This document shows positions 2-44,121 of a stretch of 47,802 bases of DNA, one piece after another (within the stretch, counting starts at the first letter, position 1; the number at the start of each line of letters is the position of its first letter). Source of the DNA: a virus; the IMG/VR virus record IMGVR_UViG_3300042540_000060, positions 1 to 47,802 of that record. One strand, written 5' to 3'. The notes below the pieces were generated by a model. The model was given only the letters and a program-made list of their open reading frames with translations, had not been told where the DNA came from and made no database searches. A program made the translations under genes and the position numbers.

Positions 2-274
2 TACCAAATTCCAGATCGAGCTGAAGTTTACAACATAGGAATGATGAACACATATTTGACTGACCTATTTAAAAAGCATTTAACCACAACTGAAGCAGAT
101 GTATTACGTCTTAGTTATGGATTAGATTGTGATAAGCATTCAGCGAATCAAATTGCAGACTATTTAGGTATTGAAGGAGCTAGTGCTTATGTAAGAATTT
201 CTGAGATAAAGAAGCAAGCGATCGTAAAATTAATAGCTAATACCGATTCTTCTCAAGTGCTTGATTTTCTTTAG
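2..274 (+). CDS. RNA polymerase sigma factor, region 4 (5'-truncated)
   Basis: This is the C-terminal part of an RpoD-type sigma factor. The frame is open to the left edge, so the ATG at 41 is probably internal and about 90 residues are visible. The segment LTTTEADVLRLSYGLD is the classic region 4 signature (bacterial form LTxREADVxRLxYGLx). It is followed by NQIADYLG and a helix ending in SEIKKQAIVKL, matching the helix-turn-helix and the VRQIKxKAIxxL recognition helix of region 4. The chain ends SQVLDFL, like the SxxLLKSYLG end of Bacteroidota RpoD. In the family, region 4 contacts the -35 element and the beta flap of RNA polymerase. A phage copy would direct host polymerase to phage promoters; this role is inferred. 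A hairpin follows the gene. Confidence 0.82.
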   Translation, partial: YQIPDRAEVYNIGMMNTYLTDLFKKHLTTTEADVLRLSYGLDCDKHSANQIADYLGIEGASAYVRISEIKKQAIVKLIANTDSSQVLDFL

Positions 275-317: not shown

Positions 318-342
318 AAAACATGTGATTATATTAATATAA

Positions 343-368
343 ATAGTAACTAATTAAATCAAATATAT
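343..368 (+). promoter_or_regulatory. Leader motif copy 1 (AGTAAC...ATATATG)
   Basis: The leader just before the ERF gene holds TAGTAAC, then an A/T-rich block with TAATTAAAT, then ATATATG at the start codon. Closely similar leaders precede the SSB-like and primase-helicase genes, with 16-18 nt between AGTAAC and ATG. No Shine-Dalgarno sequence is present. It may be part of a promoter or a translation-enhancing leader. Confidence 0.5.
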
Positions 369-944
369 ATGGCAGAAAAAAAAGAAGAAGTAATGTCTTT
401 GCATAAAAAATTATCCAGAATTCAAGTAGAATTTAAAGCGGCTAAGTCTAAGTTCAACAGTTTTGGGAAATACAATTTTAGATCTGCAGAAGACATACTG
501 GAAGCATTAAAACCCTTTAATGAAAAGTATGGTGTTTATTTTGTAATTAAGGAACATGTAACTTATAATGGTTCATTGCCAATTATGTTATCAAGTGCTG
601 CAATTTACGATATTAACGGTACTGAATCCATTGAAGCTACAGCGGTAGTTGGCGTTGACTTAGTTCAAAAAGGTATGCAAACACCACAAGCATTTGGCTC
701 AGCATCATCCTATGGTAAGAAATATGCATTAGGTAATTTACTTTTGATTGATGATACACAAGATGCTGATGCAACTAATACACACGGTAAAGATGCAAAA
801 CCTGTTGCAAAAACAAAATTAGATGTTAAAGATCCAGCATTTGAAAAAGCAAAAGACTTCGTTAAGGGAGGTGGTTCAATTGATACAATCAAATCTAAAT
901 ATGATTTAACAACAGAAGCAACAACAATCTTATCTCAATTGTAA
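369..944 (+). CDS. erf: ERF-family single-strand annealing recombinase
   Basis: A 191-residue protein of the ERF superfamily, which binds single-stranded DNA and anneals homologous strands. The N-terminal half has the family layout: LHKKLSRIQVEFKAAKSKFNSFGKYNFRSAEDI matches the usual 'KYxYRSxEDIxxAxKP' block, and QAFGSASSYGKKYALGNLLLIDD matches the conserved 'Q..GSAxTYARRYALxxLLxIdt' block near residues 105-130. After a charged linker comes a short C-terminal helical region with IDTIKSKYDLT, a common tail of these proteins. It begins a recombination block: the exonuclease gene starts 1 nt after its stop, followed by endonuclease VII and an SSB-like protein. ERF and a 5'-3' exonuclease normally act together in recombination and concatemer formation. 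Identification is confident at family level. Confidence 0.88.
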   Translation: MAEKKEEVMSLHKKLSRIQVEFKAAKSKFNSFGKYNFRSAEDILEALKPFNEKYGVYFVIKEHVTYNGSLPIMLSSAAIYDINGTESIEATAVVGVDLVQKGMQTPQAFGSASSYGKKYALGNLLLIDDTQDADATNTHGKDAKPVAKTKLDVKDPAFEKAKDFVKGGGSIDTIKSKYDLTTEATTILSQL

Positions 945-945
945 T

Positions 946-1683
946 ATGGATGACGAACAAATTAAAAAGATATTAAAACGATTAGAGAATGATGAAGACT
1001 ATTATGGAGATCTGGGTAAAAAATTCTTATCTAACTCAGACATCAGATCCTTATTAAAAGATCCATTAACATTCAAGCAACCAATAACAGGCAATCCTAA
1101 TTTGATTAAAGGTTCATATTTTCACACATTGATATTAGAACCAGATAAATTAGATAGGATTCGTATAATTGATACAACTACACGTAATACTTCTAAATAC
1201 AAAGAATTATCAAACGGAGAGATGTGTTTATTACAGCATGAAGCAGACTCTTTAAATTTATTACGAGATGCTGTTATGGAAAACAATATAACAAGAGATC
1301 TTATTAGAGATATCGATGTTGAGTATGAAGTTCCTGGATTAGTTAATATGGGCGAATGGTTTAAGCTTAAGGCAGATATAAAGAACAATACACAATCATT
1401 GATAGTTGATTTAAAGACAACATCAGATATAGATAAGTTCAGATACTCTGCAAAAGAATATAACTATGACAGTCAAGCATATATTTATTCTACATATTTT
1501 AATATGGATATGGTATTCATCGCGGTAGATAAAACCACAAGAAAGATTGGAATATATGACTGCTCACCACAATTCTTAGAGCGGGGTAAAGATAAAGTTG
1601 AAAGAGCAATTGATGCTTATAGACTATTCTTTAAAGACGCAAATTTCGATTTAAAAAATTATTGTATCAATGAAACTTTGTAA
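946..1683 (+). CDS. PD-(D/E)XK exonuclease, RecE/DUF3799-like
   Basis: A 245-residue nuclease of the PD-(D/E)XK fold. The core motifs are KADIKN near residue 142, then LIVDLKTTSDIDKF (D-x-K) near residue 150, then a helix with YDSQAYIYS near residue 177 that matches the Q/Y helix of RecE- and Cas4-like exonucleases. An early segment NPNLIKGSYFHTLILEPDK matches the 'xxGxxxHxxxLEPe' N-terminal block of phage RecE-like exonucleases. It lies directly after the ERF gene, and the endonuclease VII gene overlaps its end by 14 nt. This pairing suggests a 5'-3' exonuclease that prepares ends for the annealing protein. The substrate polarity is inferred from family and context. Confidence 0.82.
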   Translation: MDDEQIKKILKRLENDEDYYGDLGKKFLSNSDIRSLLKDPLTFKQPITGNPNLIKGSYFHTLILEPDKLDRIRIIDTTTRNTSKYKELSNGEMCLLQHEADSLNLLRDAVMENNITRDLIRDIDVEYEVPGLVNMGEWFKLKADIKNNTQSLIVDLKTTSDIDKFRYSAKEYNYDSQAYIYSTYFNMDMVFIAVDKTTRKIGIYDCSPQFLERGKDKVERAIDAYRLFFKDANFDLKNYCINETL

Positions 1684-1990
1684 GGATTGTGGTAAAGAGT
1701 TTACGCAAGGTGCTAAAAAAAGGCATTGCTGCAGAAGCTGCCATGGCCTTAGAGTAAAAGTTAGCAAATATAAAATTCCAAAAGAGAAAATTATTGAACT
1801 CTTGTCTAATGAATATTGTGATTTATGTGGTATATACATGAAAACGAAAAACATAGATCACTGTCATAAAACAGGAATTGTTAGAGGGATATTGTGTACA
1901 AATTGTAATACAGCTCTTGGAAAATTAAAAGATGATATATATTTACTTAGAAAAGCAATTAAATATTTAAAACAAACAGAAACACTTTAA
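1670..1990 (+). CDS. Recombination endonuclease VII (HNH/His-Me finger)
   Basis: A 106-residue protein with an N-terminal zinc ribbon (CKDCGKEF...CCRSCHG) and a C-terminal endonuclease VII domain. The second part has YCDLCGIYM, then NIDHCHKTGIVRGILCTNCNTALGKLKDD. DHCHKTG...RGILCxxCNxxLG is the classic signature of this family, with the HNH catalytic segment and structural CxxC pairs. T4 gp49, the model member, resolves branched DNA before packaging. The start overlaps the exonuclease gene by 14 nt, which suggests translational coupling. A second possible junction resolvase lies at 6886-7326, so the two may act on different structures. It could also be a free-standing homing endonuclease, but the operon position favours recombination. 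Confidence 0.85.
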   Translation: MKLCKDCGKEFTQGAKKRHCCRSCHGLRVKVSKYKIPKEKIIELLSNEYCDLCGIYMKTKNIDHCHKTGIVRGILCTNCNTALGKLKDDIYLLRKAIKYLKQTETL

Positions 1991-1995
1991 AAAAA

Positions 1996-2019
1996 TTAGT
2001 AACTAATAAACAATTATAT
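1996..2019 (+). promoter_or_regulatory. Leader motif copy 2
   Basis: TTAGTAACTAATAAAC followed by TTATATATG directly precedes the SSB-like gene. It matches copies 1 and 3 in sequence and in spacing to ATG (16 nt from AGTAAC here). Confidence 0.5.
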
Positions 2020-2340
2020 ATGGCAAGTATTATTAAATGTTCAATCAATTTAAACGACATTCCAAAACACAAGATCATCAACGGTGCTAAAGGAAAATAC
2101 CTTCCTATCACAATTACATTAAATGATGAAGTTGATCAATTTGGAAACCAAGGACCTGTAATGGTAGAACAATCAAAAGAGGAACGCGAATCAAAAGCGG
2201 CAAAAGTTTATCTTGGTAATGTAAAAGTAGTATGGACAAACGGAACAAATGTTGATGCAGCTCCTAGACAAGATGGACAAGCACCACCACAGAAACAAGC
2301 ACAATCGTTTGCTCCACAGGCGGATGATTTACCATTCTAA
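2020..2340 (+). CDS. Single-stranded DNA-binding protein-like
   Basis: A 106-residue protein with a short beta-rich body (residues 1-75: KCSINLNDIP, KYLPITITLND, KVYLGNVKVVW) and a Pro/Gln-rich linker ending QADDLPF. The acidic tip DDLPF is the bacterial SSB C-terminal hook (DDDIPF type), which recruits replication and repair partners. The body is shorter than a canonical OB-fold SSB, so this may be a compact phage version. It sits between the recombination genes and the primase-helicase, where an SSB would serve both. It has its own leader motif, and a strong terminator follows at 2404-2430. The name rests mainly on the C-terminal tip and the context. Confidence 0.65.
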   Translation: MASIIKCSINLNDIPKHKIINGAKGKYLPITITLNDEVDQFGNQGPVMVEQSKEERESKAAKVYLGNVKVVWTNGTNVDAAPRQDGQAPPQKQAQSFAPQADDLPF

Positions 2341-2403
2341 CAATAATAAGGTATAGGCGCACTAACTTCCAATTTCAATAGAACGCATAACAAACTGTAG
2401 TAA

Positions 2404-2430
2404 GAAAGACCCCATTAATTGGGGTTTTTC
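2404..2430 (+). terminator. Intrinsic terminator after the SSB-like gene
   Basis: ACCCCA (2409-2414) pairs with TGGGGT (2420-2425) around a 5-nt loop. The stem is preceded by an A-rich arm and followed by TTTTTC. It ends the sigma-recombination block; the next leader motif starts 12 nt later. Confidence 0.85.
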
Positions 2431-2438
2431 TATCTATA

Positions 2439-2463
2439 ATTAGTAACAATTAAATCATCTTAT
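2439..2463 (+). promoter_or_regulatory. Leader motif copy 3
   Basis: ATTAGTAACAATTAAATC and TTATATG stand between the terminator and the primase-helicase ATG. AGTAAC ends 16 nt before the start, as in copy 2. Because it follows a terminator, a new transcript must start nearby, which favours a promoter element. Confidence 0.55.
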
Positions 2464-4197
2464 ATGCAAGTAAATAGAACAGAAATAAATGGCTTCCAAA
2501 TAGATACTTTTAATCAATATGGATTAGAAGAGAAAACACAAGGTACATGCCCATTATGTTCCGCTGATAGAAAAGGTGAACATAAAAAAGCAAAATGTGC
2601 ATCTTACGATTGGGAAAGAGGTATTGGTACTTGTCACAACTGTAATAAATCATTTCAATTACACACATACCAACGCAAAGGTAAATCTGAAAAAGTATAT
2701 ACAAAACCAGAAAGAGATGCGGTAATTGATTCTGGTTTAGAATATCCGTATAGTGAAAAAGTGTTGAAATGGTTTGAAGAACGTGGTATATCCGCAAGCA
2801 CATTACAAGAATTAAAAATATCTGAAGGCAAAGAGTTTATGCCACAAACAAGTAAGGAAGAGAATGTTATTCAATTCAATTATTTTATGGGTGATGATCT
2901 TGTTAACATAAAATATAGAGATGGCAGAAAACATTTTAAACTTTACAAGGGTGCTGAAAAAATATTCTATAACATTAATAGCATTGTAGGATTTGAATAT
3001 TGTGTTATTGTAGAAGGCGAGATGGATGTTCTTGCATTACATGAAGCAGGAATAACAAACGTAATATCTGTTCCAAACGGAGCAACATTAAATAATAACA
3101 ATCTTGATTACTTAGATAATTGTATAGATTATTTTGATGATAAAGATAGAATTATTATTGCTGTTGATTCAGATGAAGCAGGACAAGCATTACAAGTAGA
3201 ATTAATTAGAAGACTAGGATCAGAACTTGTATATATCGCAACATTTGGAGATTGTAAAGACGCTAACGAATACTTATTAAAATATGGAAAAGAAAAATTA
3301 TCACAATGTATCAGTGGATCAAAGCCTGTACCAATGGAGAATGTTACAACATTCAGAGATATTGAGGGGGAGATTACTGATTTCGTGCATAACGGTTTCA
3401 AACCTGGTTTTCAAGTTGGACTTCAAAACTTTGATGATATATTTTCAACTTATACTGGTCAATTTATTACTGTTACTGGTGTACCAAGTTCAGGTAAATC
3501 GGATTTTGTCGACCAGATGGTTATTGGTTACAATGAAAAATATGGGTGGAAAACGGCGTTTGCTTCTCCAGAAAATGTACCAACGTACTTGCATGCACAC
3601 AAACTTATGCGAAAAGTGTGGCAAGGAATGCCTTCCAAAGAAGATATAGGTACAGAAAAATGGAATAGAATAGCTGATCACTGCAACCAAAGCTTCTTTC
3701 ACATTGATATGGAAAGATATACTTTAGAATCTGTTTTAAGAAAAGCAGGTGAGCTTGTAAAAAGAAAAGGTATAAAATGCTTAGTTATAGATCCATTCAA
3801 TAAGGTTAGAGATGTAGACTGTGCCACTGAAGACGTTAACAAATATACTATGGAATATCTATCTAAGATAGAAATATTTGCTAAGAAGTTTGATGTATTA
3901 GTTTTTATAGTCGCGCATCCTACAAAAATGTATAAAGATAAAGATGGTAAAATTGAAGAACCAACAATGTATTCAATTAAAGGCGGAGGCGAATGGTATG
4001 ATGCCTCTTATCATGGATTACTTGTACATAGGAACTACGAAGAAAAAACTGTTAAAGTAAAAGTTCTTAAAGTCAAGTTTCAAAACCTTGGAGAGAATGG
4101 CGCTGAATGTCATTTTAAATGGGAACCTAATTCTGGATGCTTTATACCACATGTACAAGCAGATATGTCTAATAGCAAATTGCCTTGGGAAAATTAA
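2464..4197 (+). CDS. Primase-helicase (T7 gp4-like)
   Basis: A 577-residue fused primase and replicative helicase. Residues 29-60 hold a four-Cys zinc ribbon (CPLC and CHNC), used for template recognition. A Toprim domain follows: VIVEGEMDVLALHEAG near residue 181 carries the catalytic Glu, and IIIAVDSDEAGQAL near residue 228 carries the Asp pair. The C-terminal RecA-type helicase domain has Walker A GVPSSGKS near residues 338-346, Walker B CLVIDPF near 440, and the DnaB/gp4 late motifs VAHPTKM and YSIKGGGEWYDASYHGLLVHR. The order and size match T7 gp4 (566 aa). It unwinds the fork and synthesises primers. No DNA polymerase lies in the window, so that gene should be outside it. The start follows leader motif 3. 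Confidence 0.93.
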   Translation: MQVNRTEINGFQIDTFNQYGLEEKTQGTCPLCSADRKGEHKKAKCASYDWERGIGTCHNCNKSFQLHTYQRKGKSEKVYTKPERDAVIDSGLEYPYSEKVLKWFEERGISASTLQELKISEGKEFMPQTSKEENVIQFNYFMGDDLVNIKYRDGRKHFKLYKGAEKIFYNINSIVGFEYCVIVEGEMDVLALHEAGITNVISVPNGATLNNNNLDYLDNCIDYFDDKDRIIIAVDSDEAGQALQVELIRRLGSELVYIATFGDCKDANEYLLKYGKEKLSQCISGSKPVPMENVTTFRDIEGEITDFVHNGFKPGFQVGLQNFDDIFSTYTGQFITVTGVPSSGKSDFVDQMVIGYNEKYGWKTAFASPENVPTYLHAHKLMRKVWQGMPSKEDIGTEKWNRIADHCNQSFFHIDMERYTLESVLRKAGELVKRKGIKCLVIDPFNKVRDVDCATEDVNKYTMEYLSKIEIFAKKFDVLVFIVAHPTKMYKDKDGKIEEPTMYSIKGGGEWYDASYHGLLVHRNYEEKTVKVKVLKVKFQNLGENGAECHFKWEPNSGCFIPHVQADMSNSKLPWEN

Positions 4198-9403: not shown

Positions 9404-9643
9404 ATGAAAGAACAAACATTAGTTGAAATGAAAAATAAGGTCGATGCAATTACAAGAGTATTGCAACAACTTATTTACGAGCAAGATAATTTAAGGACAT
9501 TATCTGTCGGTACTTTGGAAGCTGTAAAGTTATTACCAGGATATGATGAAGCGATTAAAGAAATGACAGAGAGGGCAAAAGCTCAAAGTGTTATTAATGA
9601 ATTGCAAACCGATGAGCAGGAAGAAAAGAAATTAGAAATTTAA
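9404..9643 (+). CDS. Small coiled-coil hypothetical protein
   Basis: A 79-residue, mostly helical, charged protein (EMKNKVDAITRVLQQL, LRTLSVGTLEAVKLLP, MTERAKAQSVINEL). It is the last gene of the plus-strand block, 48 nt after the RNR, and a strong hairpin lies 20 nt downstream. The heptad-like hydrophobic pattern suggests a dimeric coiled coil. I recognise no function. Confidence 0.55.
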   Translation: MKEQTLVEMKNKVDAITRVLQQLIYEQDNLRTLSVGTLEAVKLLPGYDEAIKEMTERAKAQSVINELQTDEQEEKKLEI

Positions 9644-9744: not shown

Positions 9745-12700
9745 CTAATCACCGCCCATTTTTCTTTTTCTCTTTTTAAGAGCTTTCTCCCTTTTTTCTA
9801 AAGCTTCTTTCTTTCTAAAAGCAAGTCTCTCTGTAGGACTCATTTTCTTTAAGGCCTCTTTCTTAGCTTTTCTTGTCGCTTCTCTAGTTTCTATGCCTTT
9901 TTCAATGCCCTCTTCTTTACGTCTTACTTTAGCAGCCGCTTTTATAGTTTCATTCTCTTCATTCTTAACATTTAATTCCCATTCTTTCCAACCTAAAGCT
10001 AAAGCAGCTCTTTGTAGGTTTGTATTACGTGAATCCAATGCTTCTGATAAGTTATCCACTTTCTCAACTAAACGGTCCAGAGGTACGTTTGTAGTAGCTA
10101 CAACAACATTTCCTACTATGGAATAATTAGGTGAAAGATTAAGTCTTCCATCTCTTGTTATTTCCCACCCTCTTTCTTCTATTACGTCTTTTTCAAACTT
10201 TCTGATTCTGTGTATCCCATATATTTTTCTGGCTTTTGAACTTATAGGAGGAGATATACCGGCAGCAGCTAAAAGAGTGTAAGCGTGATCAGCAAACATT
10301 TTCTTTTCTTCCTGCTTTTTATATTCCATTGCCACGTTTTTAATAGTAGCAATCAAAGCTCCAGTTATACCAGATCCTCTAAGCACAGTATCTACCATTC
10401 CATTTAATATATTGATAGCTTTATCATCCTGTTTTTTCTTTAGCTTGTCATATTCTTTTCTTTGTTCTTCTGACATCTTAGCTATTGTTTCTTCATCCTC
10501 CTCTTCGAATGGTAAGAATAAAGCCGCTTGTAATGCCGAGAAAAGTAAATTCTGTAAAGCTCCGTAATAGATTATCTTAGATATATTCGTTTTCCAATCT
10601 CCACGTCTATTAACCAGATCTAAAGAGGCCTTTTTTATCATTCTATTATATTGCATAGGAGTGTTAGCAAAAGCCAATACAAGACGTCCTAAACCAGTCG
10701 TTTGCTGCTTTGATACATACATAGGATCAGCAGACTGCATAGATTGATCTGTAATCATTGAAAAGTCTATCCAAGCTTTTTCTTCAGCTTCTTCTTTTGT
10801 ATTTATTAAATTACCATCTTCATCCGCTTGCTTCAAATAAGTATTAACTCTATTTCTATAAAATGACGCTCCCCCAATAGCAATAGAAAAACTATCCGCT
10901 GCTTGTGTTGGTGTAAAACCAATTTTTTGCAAGTATGATAATATACCTCTTGCTTTATCAGTTGTACTATTAGCGGCGTTTGCAATTTCCGCTTGAGTTA
11001 CATCAGCCTTTAATCCAGATCTTCTTTCTCGCATTTTATCAGAGTTAATAATAGTAGCAAAATCTGCCCAATATTGTTTCTGATTCGCAAATGCAGTAGC
11101 AGCAGCCAAAGGATTATTATCATTCCAATTCAAATAGTTAGTAGAAGATATAGTCTGTAATATAGCAGAACGTACATTAAAGAACATGATTGCCGCCGTA
11201 GATCCGTTTATCCAATTCATCCACTTATTAGTCAACGCATCAGTTCCTTCTGGTCTACTCTTGCCATTCTTCATTCTATATAAAGAATCTTCTAATTGGT
11301 TTCTAACATTTGTACCGTAGATGTATTGTATTTTATTAAGGTTCTCTTTAGTAAAAATATCATTTGCATTTTCTATGAACTCAGATAGCCATTCTTTTCT
11401 ACCATCTCCCTCTGTAATATCATGTAAGTCAGATATAATAGTGTTACTATCCCAAGTTACTGATGGTTTCATCCATCCGCCATCTTGTCTACCAGCTATT
11501 GATAAAGCGTCCGCAAAAGCCATTAGGTTTGGATCATTCTTAACAATATAAACCAATTTATTTTTGTCTCTTCTTCCTAATCCAGGTATTTCTATGTCAT
11601 TCTTACTCCATAAATAAACTCTTATAGCTTGATCATAAGTGAATTGTTTGTCAATAGTACGTTTCTCTAATTTAGATTTAATATCTGGGAAATCAGCTAA
11701 TAAAGCTTTATATTCTTTCTTTATAGATTGTCTAACAGAATCTAAAGCGTTAATGCCTTTAACGTATGGTATAACCAAATTAACATCAAAAAACTGTTGA
11801 TCTAATTCACCTTGTTTGCCTTTTCCAGAAAACATGTATGTAGTTAATCCCCTAAAATCATCCGCTGATGGTGGAACAAAGAATGATAATTCATTAGATT
11901 TTGCACCCTTTCTTTTAGCGACTATATCTGAGAATTTTTCATACGAAGGAACATTTTTATTACGTTCCAACATGTCATTAAATTCATAATCTAAAGACTT
12001 ACCAAGCTTAACTTTTAATTGATTTTGTTCCTTGTTATCTTTTGATGTGTTTATTAAAAACAAAGTACCTTCCTCGCCTCCTATTTGCTCAGTGTTATAA
12101 GTCCATCCAAGTCTAGATCCTATTGTTTCTGATAATGTTTTATATAATCTGATACGGCTAGGCTCTATTGCAGTAAAAACAATACCTTCTATATTATTTT
12201 TTTGTATATATTCAACTAATCCATTAGTAACTATGCTTAAAACATTAAAAGCATTACCGGTTTCTAAAATATCTGACCCCATGTAGTCTTCCTGAAATGT
12301 AACGTAAAGTACATTTTTATTATCTGTTAAATATGTTAGTGGTACCCCTAAATTGTTGGATATTTTTTTAAAAGTTTTTATATACACAGGAACCTGATCA
12401 AAGCCATAGTTTTTTATGCTAGCCATGTATATACTATAATTATACTCGCCAACTTTAAATGTAGTTCTTGTCTCTCCTAATTTAGTTGTCCATTCTAAAT
12501 TAGCTTTTGTCGTAAAACTAAACTTAGGCATTTGTATTTTATTATTATCAATGTACTTATTCAATTGAACCTCTGCATTTTTAATAGTCTCAAGATTAAG
12601 TGCATCGTTTACAGCAGCCATTAATGGTCCACCCTCATTCTCACGATCTTCGATTACATCAAATGCATAGTCAATTGTTCTATTCATTAAAGTTATTGTA

Positions 12701-15700
12701 TTATCAGGAACAACACCCCAATAATTTTCAATTTCCTTGACTAAATTATTTAATACATCAAAAGAGTCTTCTGCACTAATTCTATTGATATTATTTTCAG
12801 AAATATACTTAGACACTAAATCAATGTTATTTATGCCTTTATAAGAGTTTAAATTGTTTTCTAAAGACCTAGAGTGTTTTACAGATGTTTTTATATCAAT
12901 TATTTGGTTTACTCTTTTAGGAGTAAGTCGATTCATATTAGAGCCTTTTTCTTTTACATAAGCATTCAAAGCTTTCTCCGCTTCCTCGTTGAAGTTTAAG
13001 TAACCTCTTAAAAAGAAAATGTTGTCATCGGTTACTTGATACTCAAAGGTTAAAAGAAACATGTCATCCTTATTATATTTGTCTTTAAGAGCATTTTTAA
13101 AATTATCAAACCCTGCATATCCATTAAAGTAATCAAATAATCTACCGCGTAATATTATAATGTCTTGAGGCATTATTTTTTTCTTATTCATGGCTTTAGC
13201 AAAATCAACACCAACCTTAAACCTGTTTTTGCTTATATCAGCATATCTTTTACCTCCAGAAACATTTCCCTCAGCATCCATTTTTCCTCCAAACGTTTCT
13301 CGCAATTTTTTAGAGTTTTCAGCCGACAGTTTTATATTTCCATCTTTCGTAATTTCATACTCAGTAATACCTGCATCTTTTACAATAGATTTTAATAGCT
13401 CACTATTTTTTGTTAGCGGTTCTACTATTGCTTTAACCTGATTGTATAATTTAGATCCCCTTTTTCCAAAATATCCAGCTTTCAAACTACTTCTTAAAGA
13501 GTTAGCCGTTGTAGATGTTATAGGTACTCCTAAGCTTATGTCTTTTTTTGCTTCTAATATCACGGACAAATTAGACAATCCACCATTCATTTTTTTATTA
13601 AAAGCTGCTAATTTGTTATCTTTTAAGCCTACTCCTTCTTCCCCTCTCACCTTTTGGAATTTTTTTAATACTTCTATAGGGGTGATTGCTATATCTCCAA
13701 CGTAAGCATTATTACCACCTAATACTTTAACTATAAAATCTTTTCCTGTGACGCTTTGTAAGGCTACACCTAAAAGTTTTTCTTGAGCTGCCCATGAAAA
13801 TTTGTCAAATGTTTTAGCTGTAGAAATTAATATTCTATATACCTTCAATAGTTGTTGTTTTTCATCTTTCTCAATTGCAACTTTTATTTTGCCAATCATT
13901 TGATTAAAAAGACTATCTGGGTTGTTTAAAAAGTCTTTATTAGATGCCATTTCCTTAAATACTGCAGGTAAGCCCTTATTAATTTCAGTACTTAATGAAT
14001 ATTTAATATTACCTCTTTCTGCTAATCTATTTATTTCTTCTTTAGTTACCTTCTCAGCAGCCGCTCCTAACAGTTCTTGATTTCTTTGAAAAGCTTGGAA
14101 TATTGTACCCTCGTTAGCAAAATCATCGGATATAATATCAAATGAAACTTCCTCTGCTAATGCTTTTGCTAAGGATTCTTTTCTACCTCTTATTGGATTG
14201 CCTGTCTCAAGATCTATAATAGATGATAGATATTCCATGGTAGAAACATTCTTATTTACCTCGGGCAATCTTCTAACTAACTCATGCCCAGCAGTTCTAC
14301 CAGCTAAGTCCGTATTAACTGATTCTCGATCAACTTTTTCTCCTACCCAATCCGGATAATTAAGCCATCTGCCGTTTATCCTTTTCTGTATTGCAAAAGG
14401 CATGCCCCCAGCAACTTTATTACCCATATCTTTACCCATCAACCAAGTAGTGGTCATATTTTCAAGAACGGTTTTTTTATTAGTTATTAACCAATTTTGT
14501 AACTCTTGATTTTCTTTACCGCCCATTGCTTTCTTAATGTCAATGTCAGCTTGTTTACCCATTGCATCCCTTATTTCTTCTATAATCGGGGCTACTGTTC
14601 TGTTTAACGTAGTCTTCTCATTAATCTTTGATTTCAATGTTCTAACAATAGGTAGTATCTTTGCTTGAATGTTATCAAGAACATCGGGGCTAAATACTCC
14701 AGACTCTAATATATTTTGAAAACGCTTTCTTTCTGGCAATGTTGGTTTTGTTACTTCAACATCCTCATTTGCCAATTTAGTCATTTCTGTAACATCTTCA
14801 GTAAACACAACATCAGCAACTTCGCCACTCTTTAAAGCCGCTTTCATACGGTTTGCATATTGTGCATTTATATAACCATACAAGCTATTGTTTTTTGAAG
14901 GATCAAATTTAGCTATATAAGGGATCATCGATGTTCTAACGTAACTAACCATCTCTTCTAAATCAAAACCATCAAGTCCGCCTTTATCTTTATTTGTAAA
15001 ATCGATAATTGTTCCTTTAGAAGTTCGCCAGTTTCTTGATTTAACTTTAACCATTTTATCAAGTTCTGAATATATAGCCGGATTACCAGGATTAAATCCT
15101 TTTGGATCATTACCTATTGCGTCTAGTTTAGCTTTAGCTTTAGCCGCTGCCTCACTTATTTCAGTAACTTCTTTTGTTTTTGGCTTAGATTCTTTCTTCT
15201 CAGTCTTCTTTGTTTCTGGTTCTTTACCTAAAGCAGCTTTCTTTTCTTCATACTCTTTACGCTTAGTCTCGGCTTCCTCCTTTTCAAGAGCAACCATTTT
15301 GGTTTCGTAAGTGTCATAATCAATTTCATTATTATTTAATTGATCATCTAAATCGTCCATTCTTTCTTCAATAGACTTTGAATATCTTATAGCTCTAGAT
15401 ACTGGCTCTCCAGCTAATAAACTTTTTGATCTTTCACTTATTCTACCTTTACTAGCGTTTGATTGATAATTTTTTAAGAAATCATAGAAATCACGACCTT
15501 CGCTAAATTTAGCATTGGTAAAACCCATTTTTTGTAATACTCTAAGAACAGGTCTTGTGGCTCTTCTAAGAACATCTTTAATCTGGTTTTTATCTCCAAT
15601 TTCACCATAAGCAATAGCATCGATGAAAGCTGTAAAGTACTCTTCTAAATCTTCATCTTTTATTGTCCCTGTTTCCTTGTCTAAATAGTTCTCATTAATA

Positions 15701-18462
15701 CGTTTTTGTATAACATCTCTTTCTTTCTTGGTTAAAACAGATAAGAATCCATTAACAACTTTTTTTCTTTCTTGTGGATTGCTAAGTGCTTTTGCCAATA
15801 CTTTATGTAAGAATTCGTGTTGAGCAACGTTAATAGCTCCTGTTCTTGAGGCTACACTTAAGTTAACAACTGATTGACCATTAGGTAAACTGAATCCATC
15901 AGATTTAGCAACCTCTTCAACTTCTGAGTTTATTTGCTCGTCTGATTTTATGGCCGTATTAGTCGGCAATTCACCAGAAGCAATAGCTTTTTTAGTATTA
16001 TTATTTTCAACAGTAACCCATTCTTTATAAGCCTTCTTTAATTCATCGACATTCTCAAATACAGCAATAGATCCTTGATCACCTATTCTGTTATTGATAT
16101 TTTCTTCACCTAATCCAGCTACTATTTTTTTAATATTTTCAACACTACTATTAATAATTGCTCTATTGCCAACTATTTTATTTATCATAGCGTATTTACC
16201 AGTCAATAGAAACTCTCTTTGTCTTTCAAGTTCATTAAACTGTTCTTTTAACTCAGTAGCTTTCTCTTTCTTAATTTCAGGTGAAAAGTTTGATTGAGAT
16301 AATTCAATATAAGCATCTTTAGTATCTTGCTGTTTTTTGTTTATTTCCAACACAGCAGTCATGTCCTCAGCAGGCATATCATATACACGATCACGTGAGT
16401 TTTCAATAACCTTTAATGATTCATTAGATAATCTATTTATTTCTATTTTTATTTCATCAGCTTCTTTGCCAGACAATCTTGTATTAGTCTGTAGTTCATT
16501 CTGTAAATAATCTATACGGTCTATAATATTTTTACTAGCAGCCATTTCTTGAGCAGTAGCGTAGTTTTTTAATTCCTTTGCTACTAATGTTGAAACACCA
16601 CCACCCATTTGCATTCCGCCCCCCATAAATGCTCCTGCCACATAAGCCTCTTTAAATCTTTTTGCTCTATCAGAAGGAGTAATACTAACTCCTAACAAAT
16701 GCTCATCAATAAGCATGTCTAAACCTTCTGTAACAACTTCTGTGCCACCTTCTATTTGAGATTCAACACCAACAAGTCCCGCTGTGTATAAGCTTGATTT
16801 TATAAAGCTATCTTTAAACATTTTTCGAGGCTGACTACCCATAGAAGACATAACCTTTTTCATGTTGTCAAACATCCTAAGTGTACCAAGTTTTTCAGGA
16901 ACGAATTCAGCCAAAGCAAATCCATAACCTGCTAATAGTTTAGTTCCTAAGTCATAGTCAAAACCAACTTCATCTTCCATCTCTTGTATCTTTTGTCCTC
17001 CAGATCCCAACGATACAGCGGCAGCTCCATAATTGCCGCCAAAATACATTGATGCATATACAGGCAATTGCTCAGCTATTAATCCAAAGCTATATTTACC
17101 AAAATCTGAAAATGAGTTAACATCTTCAAAAGAATATTGCTTTGTATCTTCTTTAATCTTATTACCAAGTTTTATTGTATCACCTGATGCTTCACTAAGT
17201 AATCCACCAAGACCAGCTTTATCTCCCTCTATATATTCTATTGTAGATCCTAATATTTTACCAGTTCCTCCAACTATATTAAGACTTGTTCCTGCGAGTC
17301 GGGACAAATTAGCGGTAACATCCTCATAATTATACTTGAAATATTCTAACTTTTCCTCATCACTTTTTATTTTGTCAATGTACTTAGGAAAATTATCATA
17401 TACTCCTTTTAAACTTTCTAATGACTTTTTAGCATTCTCTCTCCTTACTTCATATTTAGCTATCTCTTCATCTGTAACATCCCCAGAATCATATTTTGCT
17501 TTGAATCCTTCTGCATATTTTTCAAACGAAGTTATATCATTATTATATGTTTTAGCTAATACTGTCTGTTGACGAGCTAAATCAGAAGATACCAATACAT
17601 CTTGAGCCGCTCGTATTTTAAGCTTTTCCTTTTGTTCTGCTACTTCGCTTATATACAATGGTTGTTCATCCCAATATTCTTCGGCAGCTTTGCCTTCTTG
17701 TATTAATATTTTTTCTTTATAAAATAAATCTTTTGCAAGAGCATCTATTTCTTCATTTGTTACCTTAGCGCCTTTCTTTTTAGTCTTAGATAATATTTCT
17801 ATTGCTTCTTTCTTTTGGCGCTCTAATGGTTTAAACGGAGATATAGTAAGATCTATATCAGCACCAATAGCTTGACCAACCATAGATATAGGGGACAATA
17901 CAACATCATTAAAGAAGTTTTTTGCACCCTCTCTTACATAGTCGATGGTCTGAGAATCGTTGATCTCATCATTATATAATTTGTCAATTAAAGCATAATC
18001 AATTGGTTTGCTTTTTATATAATTAACTACTTCATCTTCTTTATCTTGTAATTTTTCCCAATCTTGTTTTACAGGCCCAGCGGGCAATGTAGCTAAAGTT
18101 TTCTCTAACTCGCTTTTTGGATTTAAGATCTCCTGTATTGGATCTTCTTGATAAAACTGACTAAGATCATTTTGTTTACCAACAAAGTTTGATACTTTCT
18201 CAGTGTTCTTTTTTATATTAGTCTTCTTAGCTTTACTGCTCTTCTTAAATTCATCTAAGAATCCAGGTTCTTTTTTAGTTTGACCATCACTCCAAGGATA
18301 CGTTTTTTGTTTTGGCTTAGGAGTAACAGTATTCTTTGTAGATTTCTGCTTTAACTTCTTACCTCTTATAATGGCATCAGCCGAGGTTTTCTGCTCGGCT
18401 GCCATCTTGTTTATATCGTCTTCTGTGTATATTTGTCCTAAACTATCAACGTATTCAAACAT
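9745..18462 (-). CDS. Giant virion ejection/polyvalent protein (2905 aa) with HEXXH motif
   Basis: A 2905-residue protein, last gene of the late unit, placed like the large ejected core protein (T7 gp16). N-terminus charged with coiled coils; a hydrophobic Gly/Ala-rich zone near residues 460-515. AQHEFLHKVL (about 882-886) is an HEXXH zincin motif, with a candidate third ligand in EEYFTAFIDA near 938. Near 1180-1205, AKFDPSKNNSLYGYINAQ resembles a sigma region 2 helix. Near 2064-2120, a segment ending EPSRIRLYKTL resembles GNAT folds in polyvalent phage proteins. The last 500 residues contain amphipathic and hydrophobic helices (FFNVRSAIL, YGALQNLLFSALQAALFLPF), then a Lys/Arg-rich tail. I see no lysozyme-like motif and no DxDGD polymerase motif. 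It may cross or remodel the envelope and enter the cell with the DNA. Confidence 0.72.
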   Translation of the reverse strand: MFEYVDSLGQIYTEDDINKMAAEQKTSADAIIRGKKLKQKSTKNTVTPKPKQKTYPWSDGQTKKEPGFLDEFKKSSKAKKTNIKKNTEKVSNFVGKQNDLSQFYQEDPIQEILNPKSELEKTLATLPAGPVKQDWEKLQDKEDEVVNYIKSKPIDYALIDKLYNDEINDSQTIDYVREGAKNFFNDVVLSPISMVGQAIGADIDLTISPFKPLERQKKEAIEILSKTKKKGAKVTNEEIDALAKDLFYKEKILIQEGKAAEEYWDEQPLYISEVAEQKEKLKIRAAQDVLVSSDLARQQTVLAKTYNNDITSFEKYAEGFKAKYDSGDVTDEEIAKYEVRRENAKKSLESLKGVYDNFPKYIDKIKSDEEKLEYFKYNYEDVTANLSRLAGTSLNIVGGTGKILGSTIEYIEGDKAGLGGLLSEASGDTIKLGNKIKEDTKQYSFEDVNSFSDFGKYSFGLIAEQLPVYASMYFGGNYGAAAVSLGSGGQKIQEMEDEVGFDYDLGTKLLAGYGFALAEFVPEKLGTLRMFDNMKKVMSSMGSQPRKMFKDSFIKSSLYTAGLVGVESQIEGGTEVVTEGLDMLIDEHLLGVSITPSDRAKRFKEAYVAGAFMGGGMQMGGGVSTLVAKELKNYATAQEMAASKNIIDRIDYLQNELQTNTRLSGKEADEIKIEINRLSNESLKVIENSRDRVYDMPAEDMTAVLEINKKQQDTKDAYIELSQSNFSPEIKKEKATELKEQFNELERQREFLLTGKYAMINKIVGNRAIINSSVENIKKIVAGLGEENINNRIGDQGSIAVFENVDELKKAYKEWVTVENNNTKKAIASGELPTNTAIKSDEQINSEVEEVAKSDGFSLPNGQSVVNLSVASRTGAINVAQHEFLHKVLAKALSNPQERKKVVNGFLSVLTKKERDVIQKRINENYLDKETGTIKDEDLEEYFTAFIDAIAYGEIGDKNQIKDVLRRATRPVLRVLQKMGFTNAKFSEGRDFYDFLKNYQSNASKGRISERSKSLLAGEPVSRAIRYSKSIEERMDDLDDQLNNNEIDYDTYETKMVALEKEEAETKRKEYEEKKAALGKEPETKKTEKKESKPKTKEVTEISEAAAKAKAKLDAIGNDPKGFNPGNPAIYSELDKMVKVKSRNWRTSKGTIIDFTNKDKGGLDGFDLEEMVSYVRTSMIPYIAKFDPSKNNSLYGYINAQYANRMKAALKSGEVADVVFTEDVTEMTKLANEDVEVTKPTLPERKRFQNILESGVFSPDVLDNIQAKILPIVRTLKSKINEKTTLNRTVAPIIEEIRDAMGKQADIDIKKAMGGKENQELQNWLITNKKTVLENMTTTWLMGKDMGNKVAGGMPFAIQKRINGRWLNYPDWVGEKVDRESVNTDLAGRTAGHELVRRLPEVNKNVSTMEYLSSIIDLETGNPIRGRKESLAKALAEEVSFDIISDDFANEGTIFQAFQRNQELLGAAAEKVTKEEINRLAERGNIKYSLSTEINKGLPAVFKEMASNKDFLNNPDSLFNQMIGKIKVAIEKDEKQQLLKVYRILISTAKTFDKFSWAAQEKLLGVALQSVTGKDFIVKVLGGNNAYVGDIAITPIEVLKKFQKVRGEEGVGLKDNKLAAFNKKMNGGLSNLSVILEAKKDISLGVPITSTTANSLRSSLKAGYFGKRGSKLYNQVKAIVEPLTKNSELLKSIVKDAGITEYEITKDGNIKLSAENSKKLRETFGGKMDAEGNVSGGKRYADISKNRFKVGVDFAKAMNKKKIMPQDIIILRGRLFDYFNGYAGFDNFKNALKDKYNKDDMFLLTFEYQVTDDNIFFLRGYLNFNEEAEKALNAYVKEKGSNMNRLTPKRVNQIIDIKTSVKHSRSLENNLNSYKGINNIDLVSKYISENNINRISAEDSFDVLNNLVKEIENYWGVVPDNTITLMNRTIDYAFDVIEDRENEGGPLMAAVNDALNLETIKNAEVQLNKYIDNNKIQMPKFSFTTKANLEWTTKLGETRTTFKVGEYNYSIYMASIKNYGFDQVPVYIKTFKKISNNLGVPLTYLTDNKNVLYVTFQEDYMGSDILETGNAFNVLSIVTNGLVEYIQKNNIEGIVFTAIEPSRIRLYKTLSETIGSRLGWTYNTEQIGGEEGTLFLINTSKDNKEQNQLKVKLGKSLDYEFNDMLERNKNVPSYEKFSDIVAKRKGAKSNELSFFVPPSADDFRGLTTYMFSGKGKQGELDQQFFDVNLVIPYVKGINALDSVRQSIKKEYKALLADFPDIKSKLEKRTIDKQFTYDQAIRVYLWSKNDIEIPGLGRRDKNKLVYIVKNDPNLMAFADALSIAGRQDGGWMKPSVTWDSNTIISDLHDITEGDGRKEWLSEFIENANDIFTKENLNKIQYIYGTNVRNQLEDSLYRMKNGKSRPEGTDALTNKWMNWINGSTAAIMFFNVRSAILQTISSTNYLNWNDNNPLAAATAFANQKQYWADFATIINSDKMRERRSGLKADVTQAEIANAANSTTDKARGILSYLQKIGFTPTQAADSFSIAIGGASFYRNRVNTYLKQADEDGNLINTKEEAEEKAWIDFSMITDQSMQSADPMYVSKQQTTGLGRLVLAFANTPMQYNRMIKKASLDLVNRRGDWKTNISKIIYYGALQNLLFSALQAALFLPFEEEDEETIAKMSEEQRKEYDKLKKKQDDKAINILNGMVDTVLRGSGITGALIATIKNVAMEYKKQEEKKMFADHAYTLLAAAGISPPISSKARKIYGIHRIRKFEKDVIEERGWEITRDGRLNLSPNYSIVGNVVVATTNVPLDRLVEKVDNLSEALDSRNTNLQRAALALGWKEWELNVKNEENETIKAAAKVRRKEEGIEKGIETREATRKAKKEALKKMSPTERLAFRKKEALEKREKALKKRKRKMGGD

Positions 18463-39191: not shown

Positions 39192-39218
39192 TTATTTTAT
39201 TTTGTATATTAATATTAG

Positions 39219-39291
39219 TAGCAACGTACTGGAGTCGAACCAGTTTTAGCGGGCTTATGAGACCCGTGAGATACCTTACCTCCCACCTGCT
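39219..39291 (-). tRNA. tRNA-like gene with CAU anticodon (Met or Ile2)
   Basis: A 73-nt cloverleaf on the minus strand. The anticodon stem CGGGT/GCCCG encloses the loop CTCATAA with anticodon CAT. The T arm is ACTGG-TTCGACT-CCAGT, with a standard TTCGA loop. The D arm is GAGG/TCTC with loop TAAGGTA. The variable loop is CTAAA, and the discriminator base is A. The acceptor stem is imperfect: AGCAG pairs with the 3' TTGCT, but the two innermost positions do not pair, and one extra A follows the T stem. No CCA is encoded. It overlaps the stop codon of the upstream gene by 2 nt. It could be a phage tRNA-Met/Ile or a degenerate copy. Confidence 0.68.
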
Positions 39292-42318: not shown

Positions 42319-42575
42319 AAAACTATTACAACATCCTGCAATCTTATAACCTGATAATCTTGACCATCAAATTCTATACCGTGACCAGCAGCTTTATCAT
42401 AGTAAATAACATCTGCTTGCTTTAAACATTTAATATCATCGCTCACTGATATAACAACAGCTTCTTTATATCGTATATTTTCTTTGTCTTTTTCCTTTAA
42501 TAATAATCCGCTCTCTGTTTGTGATACACCTACTTTCTTTGGTAGTATCACTATATTATTACCTATTGCCTTCAT
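42315..42575 (-). CDS. groS: Phage GroES co-chaperonin
   Basis: An 86-residue GroES-family protein. It has AIGNNIVILPKK (equivalent to DRVLIKP), a mobile-loop region GVSQTESGLLLKE (the part that binds GroEL), VVISVSDDIKCLKQADVIYYDKAAG (equivalent to the GDxVLF...Y region) and YQVIRLQDVVIVL at the end. It is slightly shorter than bacterial GroES (about 97 aa). It overlaps the groEL end by 17 nt, so groEL precedes groES, the reverse of most bacterial operons. It should cap the phage or host GroEL chamber. Confidence 0.83.
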   Translation of the reverse strand: MKAIGNNIVILPKKVGVSQTESGLLLKEKDKENIRYKEAVVISVSDDIKCLKQADVIYYDKAAGHGIEFDGQDYQVIRLQDVVIVL

Positions 42576-44121
42576 TGATTCTTAAATTATTAATTATACA
42601 ATCAGTTGACAATATCGTAACAGCTACAGAAGCAGCATTTCTTAAAGCGCTTTTTGTAACAGATAAAGGATCAATAATTCCTGCTTCTATCATGTTAACT
42701 TGTTCGCCAGTTACAGCATTCAATCCGTGACCTTCTAAGCGATTCCAATCCTTGTTTGGATGATCAATACCAGCATTAGATAATATCGTCTTAAACGGAG
42801 CTTTAATAGCTTCTAATAAAGCAAGTGATCCTTGGTTCAATGCTTTTATTTTATTCGATGCATCTAAAAGAGCAATTCCTCCTCCTGGAACAATTCCTTC
42901 TTTAATAGCTGCTTTAGTTGCACATATCGCATCTTCAACTCTATCTGCTTTCTCTTTTAATTCTAAATCAGAACCAGCACCTACTTTTACTACAGCTACT
43001 TTTGCTGATAACCTTGCTAATCTTTTTTCTAATCTAATTACTTCTCCTGGAGCAGTAGCTTTTGCTAATTGTGAATTTAACTCATCAATCAGTTCTTGAA
43101 CTGCTGGTTTAGTTTCTCCTACATGTAATATTGTTTCGCTATCATCTGTAATTGCTTTTAAGCAACTGCCTAAGCATTCAATATCTATAAGGTCCATATC
43201 GTCACCTAGATCTTCATTTATAATGGTAGCTCCTGTTAATAAAGCAAGATCAGTTAGTGTATCCTTTTTTGTGATACCATAAGTAGGTGCATTAATAACG
43301 TTAACTTTAATATTACCTTTAACCTTATTCATTGCTAAAGCAGATAAAACAGTTTGTTCCATGTCTGCTATAATCAATAATGGTTTATTATTTTTTATTA
43401 CATATTCTAATACCGATTGTATTTGGCGAATAGACTCAACTGGTGACTCTACGATTAATACTAATGGGTTTTCTAATTCTGCAACTCTTTTATTTGGATT
43501 TGTAATAAAGTTTGAATTTACCAAACCTTTATCATATTGTACCCCATCAATAATTTCAATTTCGGTTTCCGGATTTGCTGATGATTCCATCATCACAATT
43601 CCAGTTTCACCAACAGCTCTAAAAGCATCACCAATAATTTTACCAAGTACTGGATCGTTGTTAGTTGATATAGTAGCAATATGATCTATCATATCACCCG
43701 TTACAGATACTTTAATAGACTCTAAGTATTCCACAACTAAATCTACAGTTTCTTCAATACCATTCTTTAATTCTCTAGAACTTACCAAATCTTGTATTAA
43801 GTAAGCTTCCTCTAAAATAGCATGCGCTAATACTGTTGCTGTTGTTGTACCATCTCCAGCTTCTTTAACTGTTTTTCTAGCGGCTTCTTTTAAAAGTCTT
43901 GCTCCCATGTTTTCTACAGGATCTAATAGAGTAACACTATCTGCTACTGTAACCCCATCCTTAGTGATTAGCGGTCTACCTTTATCATCTTCTAACATTA
44001 CACATTTACCACCAGCTCCCAATGTTGAACTAACAGCTCTAGTTAATTTGGTGATACCAGCAAATACATTATCCCTAGCTTCTTTACCAAAGCTAAGATT
44101 CTTTACTATCTCATTTGACAT
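42559..44121 (-). CDS. groL: Phage GroEL chaperonin
   Basis: A 520-residue group I chaperonin that folds proteins in an ATP-driven ring. ATPase residues are present: Asp55 in TKDGVTVA, Asp90 in GDGTTTATVLAH, Asp397 in RVEDAICATKAA, the VPGGGIAL loop near 411-417, and Asp484 in GIIDPLSVTKSALRNAASVA. The otherwise conserved TLGPKGRNV reads TLGAGGKCV, losing the Pro and shifting the basic residue. The apical domain is full length but diverged. The Gly-Gly-Met tail of bacterial GroEL is absent; it ends NNLRINEGNR. It lies after the endolysin gene and before groES. It may fold the capsid or other late proteins of the phage. Confidence 0.93.
   Translation of the reverse strand: MSNEIVKNLSFGKEARDNVFAGITKLTRAVSSTLGAGGKCVMLEDDKGRPLITKDGVTVADSVTLLDPVENMGARLLKEAARKTVKEAGDGTTTATVLAHAILEEAYLIQDLVSSRELKNGIEETVDLVVEYLESIKVSVTGDMIDHIATISTNNDPVLGKIIGDAFRAVGETGIVMMESSANPETEIEIIDGVQYDKGLVNSNFITNPNKRVAELENPLVLIVESPVESIRQIQSVLEYVIKNNKPLLIIADMEQTVLSALAMNKVKGNIKVNVINAPTYGITKKDTLTDLALLTGATIINEDLGDDMDLIDIECLGSCLKAITDDSETILHVGETKPAVQELIDELNSQLAKATAPGEVIRLEKRLARLSAKVAVVKVGAGSDLELKEKADRVEDAICATKAAIKEGIVPGGGIALLDASNKIKALNQGSLALLEAIKAPFKTILSNAGIDHPNKDWNRLEGHGLNAVTGEQVNMIEAGIIDPLSVTKSALRNAASVAVTILSTDCIINNLRINEGNR

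Follow-up and report, generated by a model that had tools for sequence, protein, structure and literature searches.

In an uncultured phage, probably of flavobacteria, a short string shared by three early genes probably marks leader starts at two genes and a gene relic at the third

Three neighbouring early phage genes, for an ERF-like annealing protein, an SSB-like protein and a primase/helicase, are preceded by the same short string, TAGTAAC(T)AAT. Does this string represent one control element? A preliminary description suggested that it may be a phage promoter or a translation leader replacing the Shine-Dalgarno (SD) site. Little is known about how transcription is directed in phages of Bacteroidota. 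We analysed the 47.8-kb linear virus contig that carries the three genes (the window) against a comparison set of about 100 related phage contigs and about 240 loci retrieved with the ERF, SSB-like and primase proteins; the label SSB is that of the preliminary description. The contig G001 (IMGVR_UViG_3300035681_000043) overlaps the window with identical shared genes and supplies the missing left part. The terminase is closest to that of the metagenomic podovirus MW202828 (66% identity) and shares 45% identity with that of Flavobacterium Elemovirus, and one structural protein contains a crAss muzzle domain. Judging from the terminase relatives and the muzzle domain, the host is probably a member of Bacteroidota, and the phage is probably an uncultured flavobacterial one. 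The features of the locus are listed in Table 1.

Table 1. Features of the early region of the window
Feature	Positions	Strand	Basis
RpoD-like sigma factor, C-terminal end	2..274	+	Pfam Sigma70_r4, E 9e-4
Conserved promoter-like block AACATGTGATTATATTAATATAA upstream of ERF	320..342	+	ERF upstream model; position kept in relatives
ERF 5' leader TAGTAACTAATTAAATCAAATATAT	344..368	+	AAC(N)AATTAAATC part conserved, AGTAAC not
ERF-like ssDNA annealing protein	369..944	+	phrog_155, E 2e-38
Endonuclease VII-like HNH gene	1670..1990	+	phrog_2633, E 1e-21
SSB-proximal copy TTAGTAACTAATAAACAATTATAT	1996..2019	+	Alignment to the coding end of a lipoprotein gene
SSB-like small protein	2020..2340	+	phrog_24909 (PHROGs: unknown function), E 1e-8
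Extended hairpin TAG.TAG..ACCCC/GGGGT..CTATCTA, terminator-like	2396..2438	+	RNA fold
Primase 5' leader TAATTAGTAACAATTAAATCATCTTAT	2437..2463	+	Constraint in relatives; promoter/gene insertion site
DNA primase/helicase	2464..4197	+	phrog_239, E 2e-80

The string, written as TAGTAACT?AAT, was found at positions 344, 1997 and 2441 of the plus strand, each time just before a gene start, and nowhere else on either strand of the window. A first-order Markov model of the same composition predicted 0.5 copies (maximum 3 in 60 runs), an excess that is somewhat flattered since the pattern was fixed after the data were seen. The shorter TAGTAAC was not enriched (10 observed vs 8.6 expected). The near-equal distance of 16–18 nt claimed between AGTAAC and ATG was measured as 18, 16 and 16 nt. 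The three genes had also been described as the only early ones with a large upstream gap; their gaps are indeed 94, 29 and 123 nt, but they are not the only ones, because the gene at 9404 has a gap of 48 nt.

A putative early promoter of the phage clade, TACARNCTNAAYACGA-N8-TGATAATATAnATGTAAC(T)AAA, recurs upstream of genes in G001 and relatives; it lies just upstream of the window on the overlapping contig, and its 3' end reads TGTAAC(T)AA. Scanning ten genomes with an ungapped model of 38.6 bits yielded 93 matches above the cut-off of 14 bits; every one of them was on the early coding strand, whereas no reversed sequence exceeded 10 bits. The distances to ATG peaked at 31–32 and 51–53 nt, and a search of the viral collection for the strict pattern gave 42 stretches. 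Positions 5–12 of the promoter, TATANNTG, are related to the host -7 box TAHHTTTG (PMC6847099); if this relationship holds, transcription would start just after TGTAAC. The promoter has about 7–15 copies per genome upstream of small early genes (L171/G001 C1:8363-15721, minus strand; G002, G004, G005 and G012). A second variant with CACGGACTTA occurs in G006-G010 and G016, and its leader of 51–53 nt contains the inverted repeat AAGATTA...TAATCTT. No early promoter was found inside the window: when the three sites were scored as such, ERF reached 9 of 29 bits with one inserted base, and SSB and primase fell below zero. Inspection of the three sites revealed no host TAnnTTTG promoter either, and a scan for E. 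coli-type sigma-70 promoters was uninformative (40 matches vs 52 expected). The literature searched yielded no Flavobacterium phage with a mapped early promoter.

Upstream of ERF, the block AYRYGTAATTATATTAATATA is conserved in the relatives 45–49 nt before ATG, directly upstream of the leader. It was the top genome-wide match of a model built from 30 distinct ERF upstream regions, with the ERF sites themselves as the training sites. Since this model also matched reversed sequence strongly (up to 17.8 bits), the block is clear only at ERF. The A/T-rich leader AACNAATTAAATCAAATAT that follows is retained in the relatives, which read AYRYGTAATTATATWAATATA and then TAAACAATTAAATCAAATAT-ATG.

The retained part of the leader proved to be widespread. 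AAC(N)AATTAAAT was present in 23 of 321 gene-upstream gaps, whereas 0.4 were expected, although the 23 copies are not independent events since the genomes are related. Genome-wide, 22 of its 29 sites lie 17–22 nt before a called start codon. It is thus over-represented at starts, with a fixed orientation and a narrow distance. A peaked at positions -14 to -11 and -3 of the start contexts, and SD-like sites accounted for only 1.9%. The start contexts of F. johnsoniae are likewise A-rich at -14 to -11, with A at -3 and almost no SD (PMC6847099). Flavobacterial 5' UTRs are usually short, and since their median is 24 bp in F. psychrophilum (PMC9723704), an mRNA beginning at AGTAAC or AAC is plausible. 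It is rather unlikely that the string acts in translation initiation alone, as a leader that replaces the SD site and has no link to the transcription start. The start-context composition fits such a role, and AAC(N)AATTAAAT occurs in differing upstream settings, in one case before a late gene that directly follows a tRNA-like sequence. Yet AGTAAC lies at -24 to -17, past the A-rich zone; among relatives, 21 to 26 nt separate it from the primase ATG (start to start), and it falls at the place of TGTAAC in the early promoter. The over-representation and spacing of AAC(N)AATTAAAT support the proposed 5'-leader role for two of the three genes, whereas AGTAAC itself finds no support as an SD substitute. 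A tRNA-like sequence at window ~39210-39290 (minus strand) has a CTCATAA anticodon-like loop and a T-loop-like GGTTCGACTCC; Rfam and ARAGORN gave no match to it or elsewhere in the window.

At the primase gene, the relatives show strong constraint on a long terminator-like hairpin and on the ATTAGTAACAATTAAAT that comes after it. Folding of 2395-2475 gave -22.5 kcal/mol (z -4.8), with the T run inside the extended stem; a simple terminator scan listed the hairpin on the minus strand only. The hairpin is present in the closest 25–30 relatives, and 16 primase sequences, including that of the window, have in common the hairpin and CTATCTATAATTAGTAACAATTAAAT or a variant close to it. Among pairs with less than 50% identity at the near-saturated 4-fold sites of primase, identity over the first 22 leader columns is 89%, a value inflated at columns 1–7, which anchored the alignment. 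Other close relatives, among them L040, L180, L095, L111 and L104, have a complete early promoter at the primase AGTAAC. In the L040 type, the hairpin is followed by GAATTAGTAAC, then by the complete early promoter, TGTAACAAATCAAATC and ATG; in the window it is followed by TAATTAGTAAC, AATTAAATC and ATG.

Alleles with and without the promoter of 41–47 nt join exactly at GTAAC, and the promoter state changes at least seven times on the 105-row primase tree, which indicates repeated gain or loss. In G004, a 448-bp cassette is inserted at the same junction between two 17-bp copies of AGTAACAATTTAATTAT; its ORF is putatively HAD-like, as named from the first residues, and L169 has the uninterrupted form. 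We tentatively propose, as a possibility, that GTAAC(N)AATTAAAT serves as a junction for exchange, at which early promoters or small leader-bearing genes are gained or lost before replication genes, so that recombination between GTAAC repeats would switch a gene between its own promoter and control by the hairpin. Another reading, in which AGTAACAATTAAAT at primase is mainly a deletion/insertion junction where recombination between AGTAA(C) after the hairpin and TGTAAC in the early promoter removes or adds the promoter and the conservation reflects the hairpin module, would draw on these joints, state changes and cassette. We regard it as unlikely, because ATTAGTAACAAT lies outside the hairpin and yet is constrained in the absence of a following promoter (12 of 16 exact). 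The constrained primase segment could belong to the hairpin and not to a promoter.

The SSB copy has a different background. In its closest relatives, L078, L093 and L012, AGTAAC lies within GATTCAGTAACTAATAAATAA, the last codons (DSVTNK*) of a small lipoprotein-like gene, and in the window the HNH gene occupies the place of this gene. The window segment AGTAACTAATAAA[CT]AATTATAT aligns with that coding end, of which only AGTAACTAATAAACAATTATAT remains beside the HNH gene. The SSB copy, which corresponds to the 3' end of the gene replaced by the HNH gene, is probably a relic of that displaced gene.

These origins bear on the idea that AGTAAC(T)AAT is the core of one phage promoter at all three genes, read by the sigma factor of the phage. 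The three exact copies with similar spacing and the constraint on ATTAGTAAC at primase speak for it, as does the sigma factor itself, whose gene is directly upstream of ERF and of which the window carries only the C-terminal end. The complete protein (254 aa, overlapping contig L171:5142-5906) matches PHROG 351, RNA polymerase sigma factor (E 7e-20), and its profile matches RpoD/SigA/FliA chains in PDB (best 6e-11); with RpoD-like regions 2 and 4 it belongs to the sigma-70 family. However, the upstream regions of ERF orthologues contain AGTAAC in only 3 of 77 cases, those of SSB in 8 of 108 and those of primase in 13 of 112, and its constraint was seen at primase only, within the hairpin group. 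In three of the closest relatives at SSB, it falls in coding sequence. The flanks of the three copies are wholly different (the ATGTGATTATATTAATATA block at ERF, the hairpin at primase and nothing recognisable at SSB), so that no common recognition block stands at a fixed distance upstream of AGTAAC, and the string is absent before other operons. A single shared promoter is thus quite improbable, whereas the proposed link to promoters is supported in that the 3' end of the early promoter reads TGTAAC(T)AA and ERF has its conserved block. Mere chance resemblance among A/T-rich leaders, which would suit the expected frequency of TAGTAAC and the unrelated origin of the SSB copy, is very improbable in view of the strong constraint at primase and the number of leader copies over expectation.

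Two copies look like leader starts next to control elements that differ, and the third looks like a leftover, so the string does not represent a single new switch. With moderate confidence, we favour the explanation that the string is not a dedicated control sequence: at ERF and primase it would be the promoter-proximal start of a short SD-less leader, and at SSB a vestige without control function. The ERF and primase strings would open A/U-rich, unstructured 5' leaders of about 17–24 nt, AAC(N)AAUUAAAU...AUG, which the phage clade may use in place of SD sites. Transcription probably starts at or beside AGTAAC at these two genes; we infer this start, as well as the polymerase or sigma factor that would act there, from the neighbouring elements. 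ERF transcription would be driven by the conserved block and primase transcription by the constrained segment after the hairpin, whose place a full early promoter ending in TGTAAC takes over in other relatives. On the evidence of sequence comparison, the string would act like a start-associated leader beside promoters, neither as one promoter nor as an SD substitute of fixed spacing; the preliminary description was half right. The case also warns that neighbouring phage genes may be preceded by identical short strings whose origins are unrelated. For a widespread uncultured clade, the analysis provides a concrete consensus for the early promoter, together with a leader element and a sigma factor of the phage, all of which can be tested in a flavobacterial host.

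Several other elements were observed in these genomes. MW202828.1 43745-55154 contains 15 copies of the palindrome GTGTCGTTAACGACAC (two variable positions), many of them just upstream of early gene starts, and this looks like an operator set. A conserved AATAGTGACGTCAGCTAATTAA with the palindrome TGACGTCA is located at G001 ~5437 (minus strand), G002:8280 and G004:9957, upstream of a conserved gene for an HTH-containing protein of 205–209 aa, and is a possible autoregulatory operator. The window encodes a GroEL-like chaperonin (42559-44121, minus strand) with the conserved leader GGTAATATATATATTAAATTAAATTC. The 2905-aa protein at 9745-18462 (minus strand), considered as a crAss-type virion RNA polymerase that might read the sites, was rejected: it lacks a D.D.D/DFDG motif and matched nothing in Pfam, PHROGs or PDB.

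By terminase, the nearest cultured relatives are the Elemovirus podoviruses of Flavobacterium such as vB_FspP_elemoC_14-1A, which share with the window phage the primase/helicase, ERF, endonuclease VII and GroEL genes. They differ from the phage clade in the absence of an early promoter match (elemoC_14-1A 1-30000), and the less distant MW202828 lacks it as well. Compared with the TTTG/TAHHTTTG promoter of the primary sigma factor of Bacteroidota, TATANNTG keeps TA....TG at the place of the -7 box, whereas the GATAA and TACARNCTNAAYACGA blocks are additions absent from the host consensus (PMC6847099, PMC9723704). The leaders resemble the SD-less initiation regions of F. johnsoniae in their A-rich zone, the A at -3 and the near absence of SD; the recurrent AAC(N)AATTAAAT is added in the phage clade and is not described in the consulted passages on the host (PMC6847099). 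Another parallel is the SAS/ESAS of Cluster K mycobacteriophages (PMC3203893), which is also a short asymmetric repeat in a single orientation. It is found only beside the start codons of non-structural genes, with an inverted repeat just upstream in some copies, and a role in expression of the downstream gene has been proposed. However, SAS consists of a single 13-bp sequence whose SD core lies 3–7 bp from ATG, and it has 11–19 copies per genome, whereas the phage element described here has no SD core, lies 17–22 nt from ATG and includes at this locus three look-alikes of apparently different origins.
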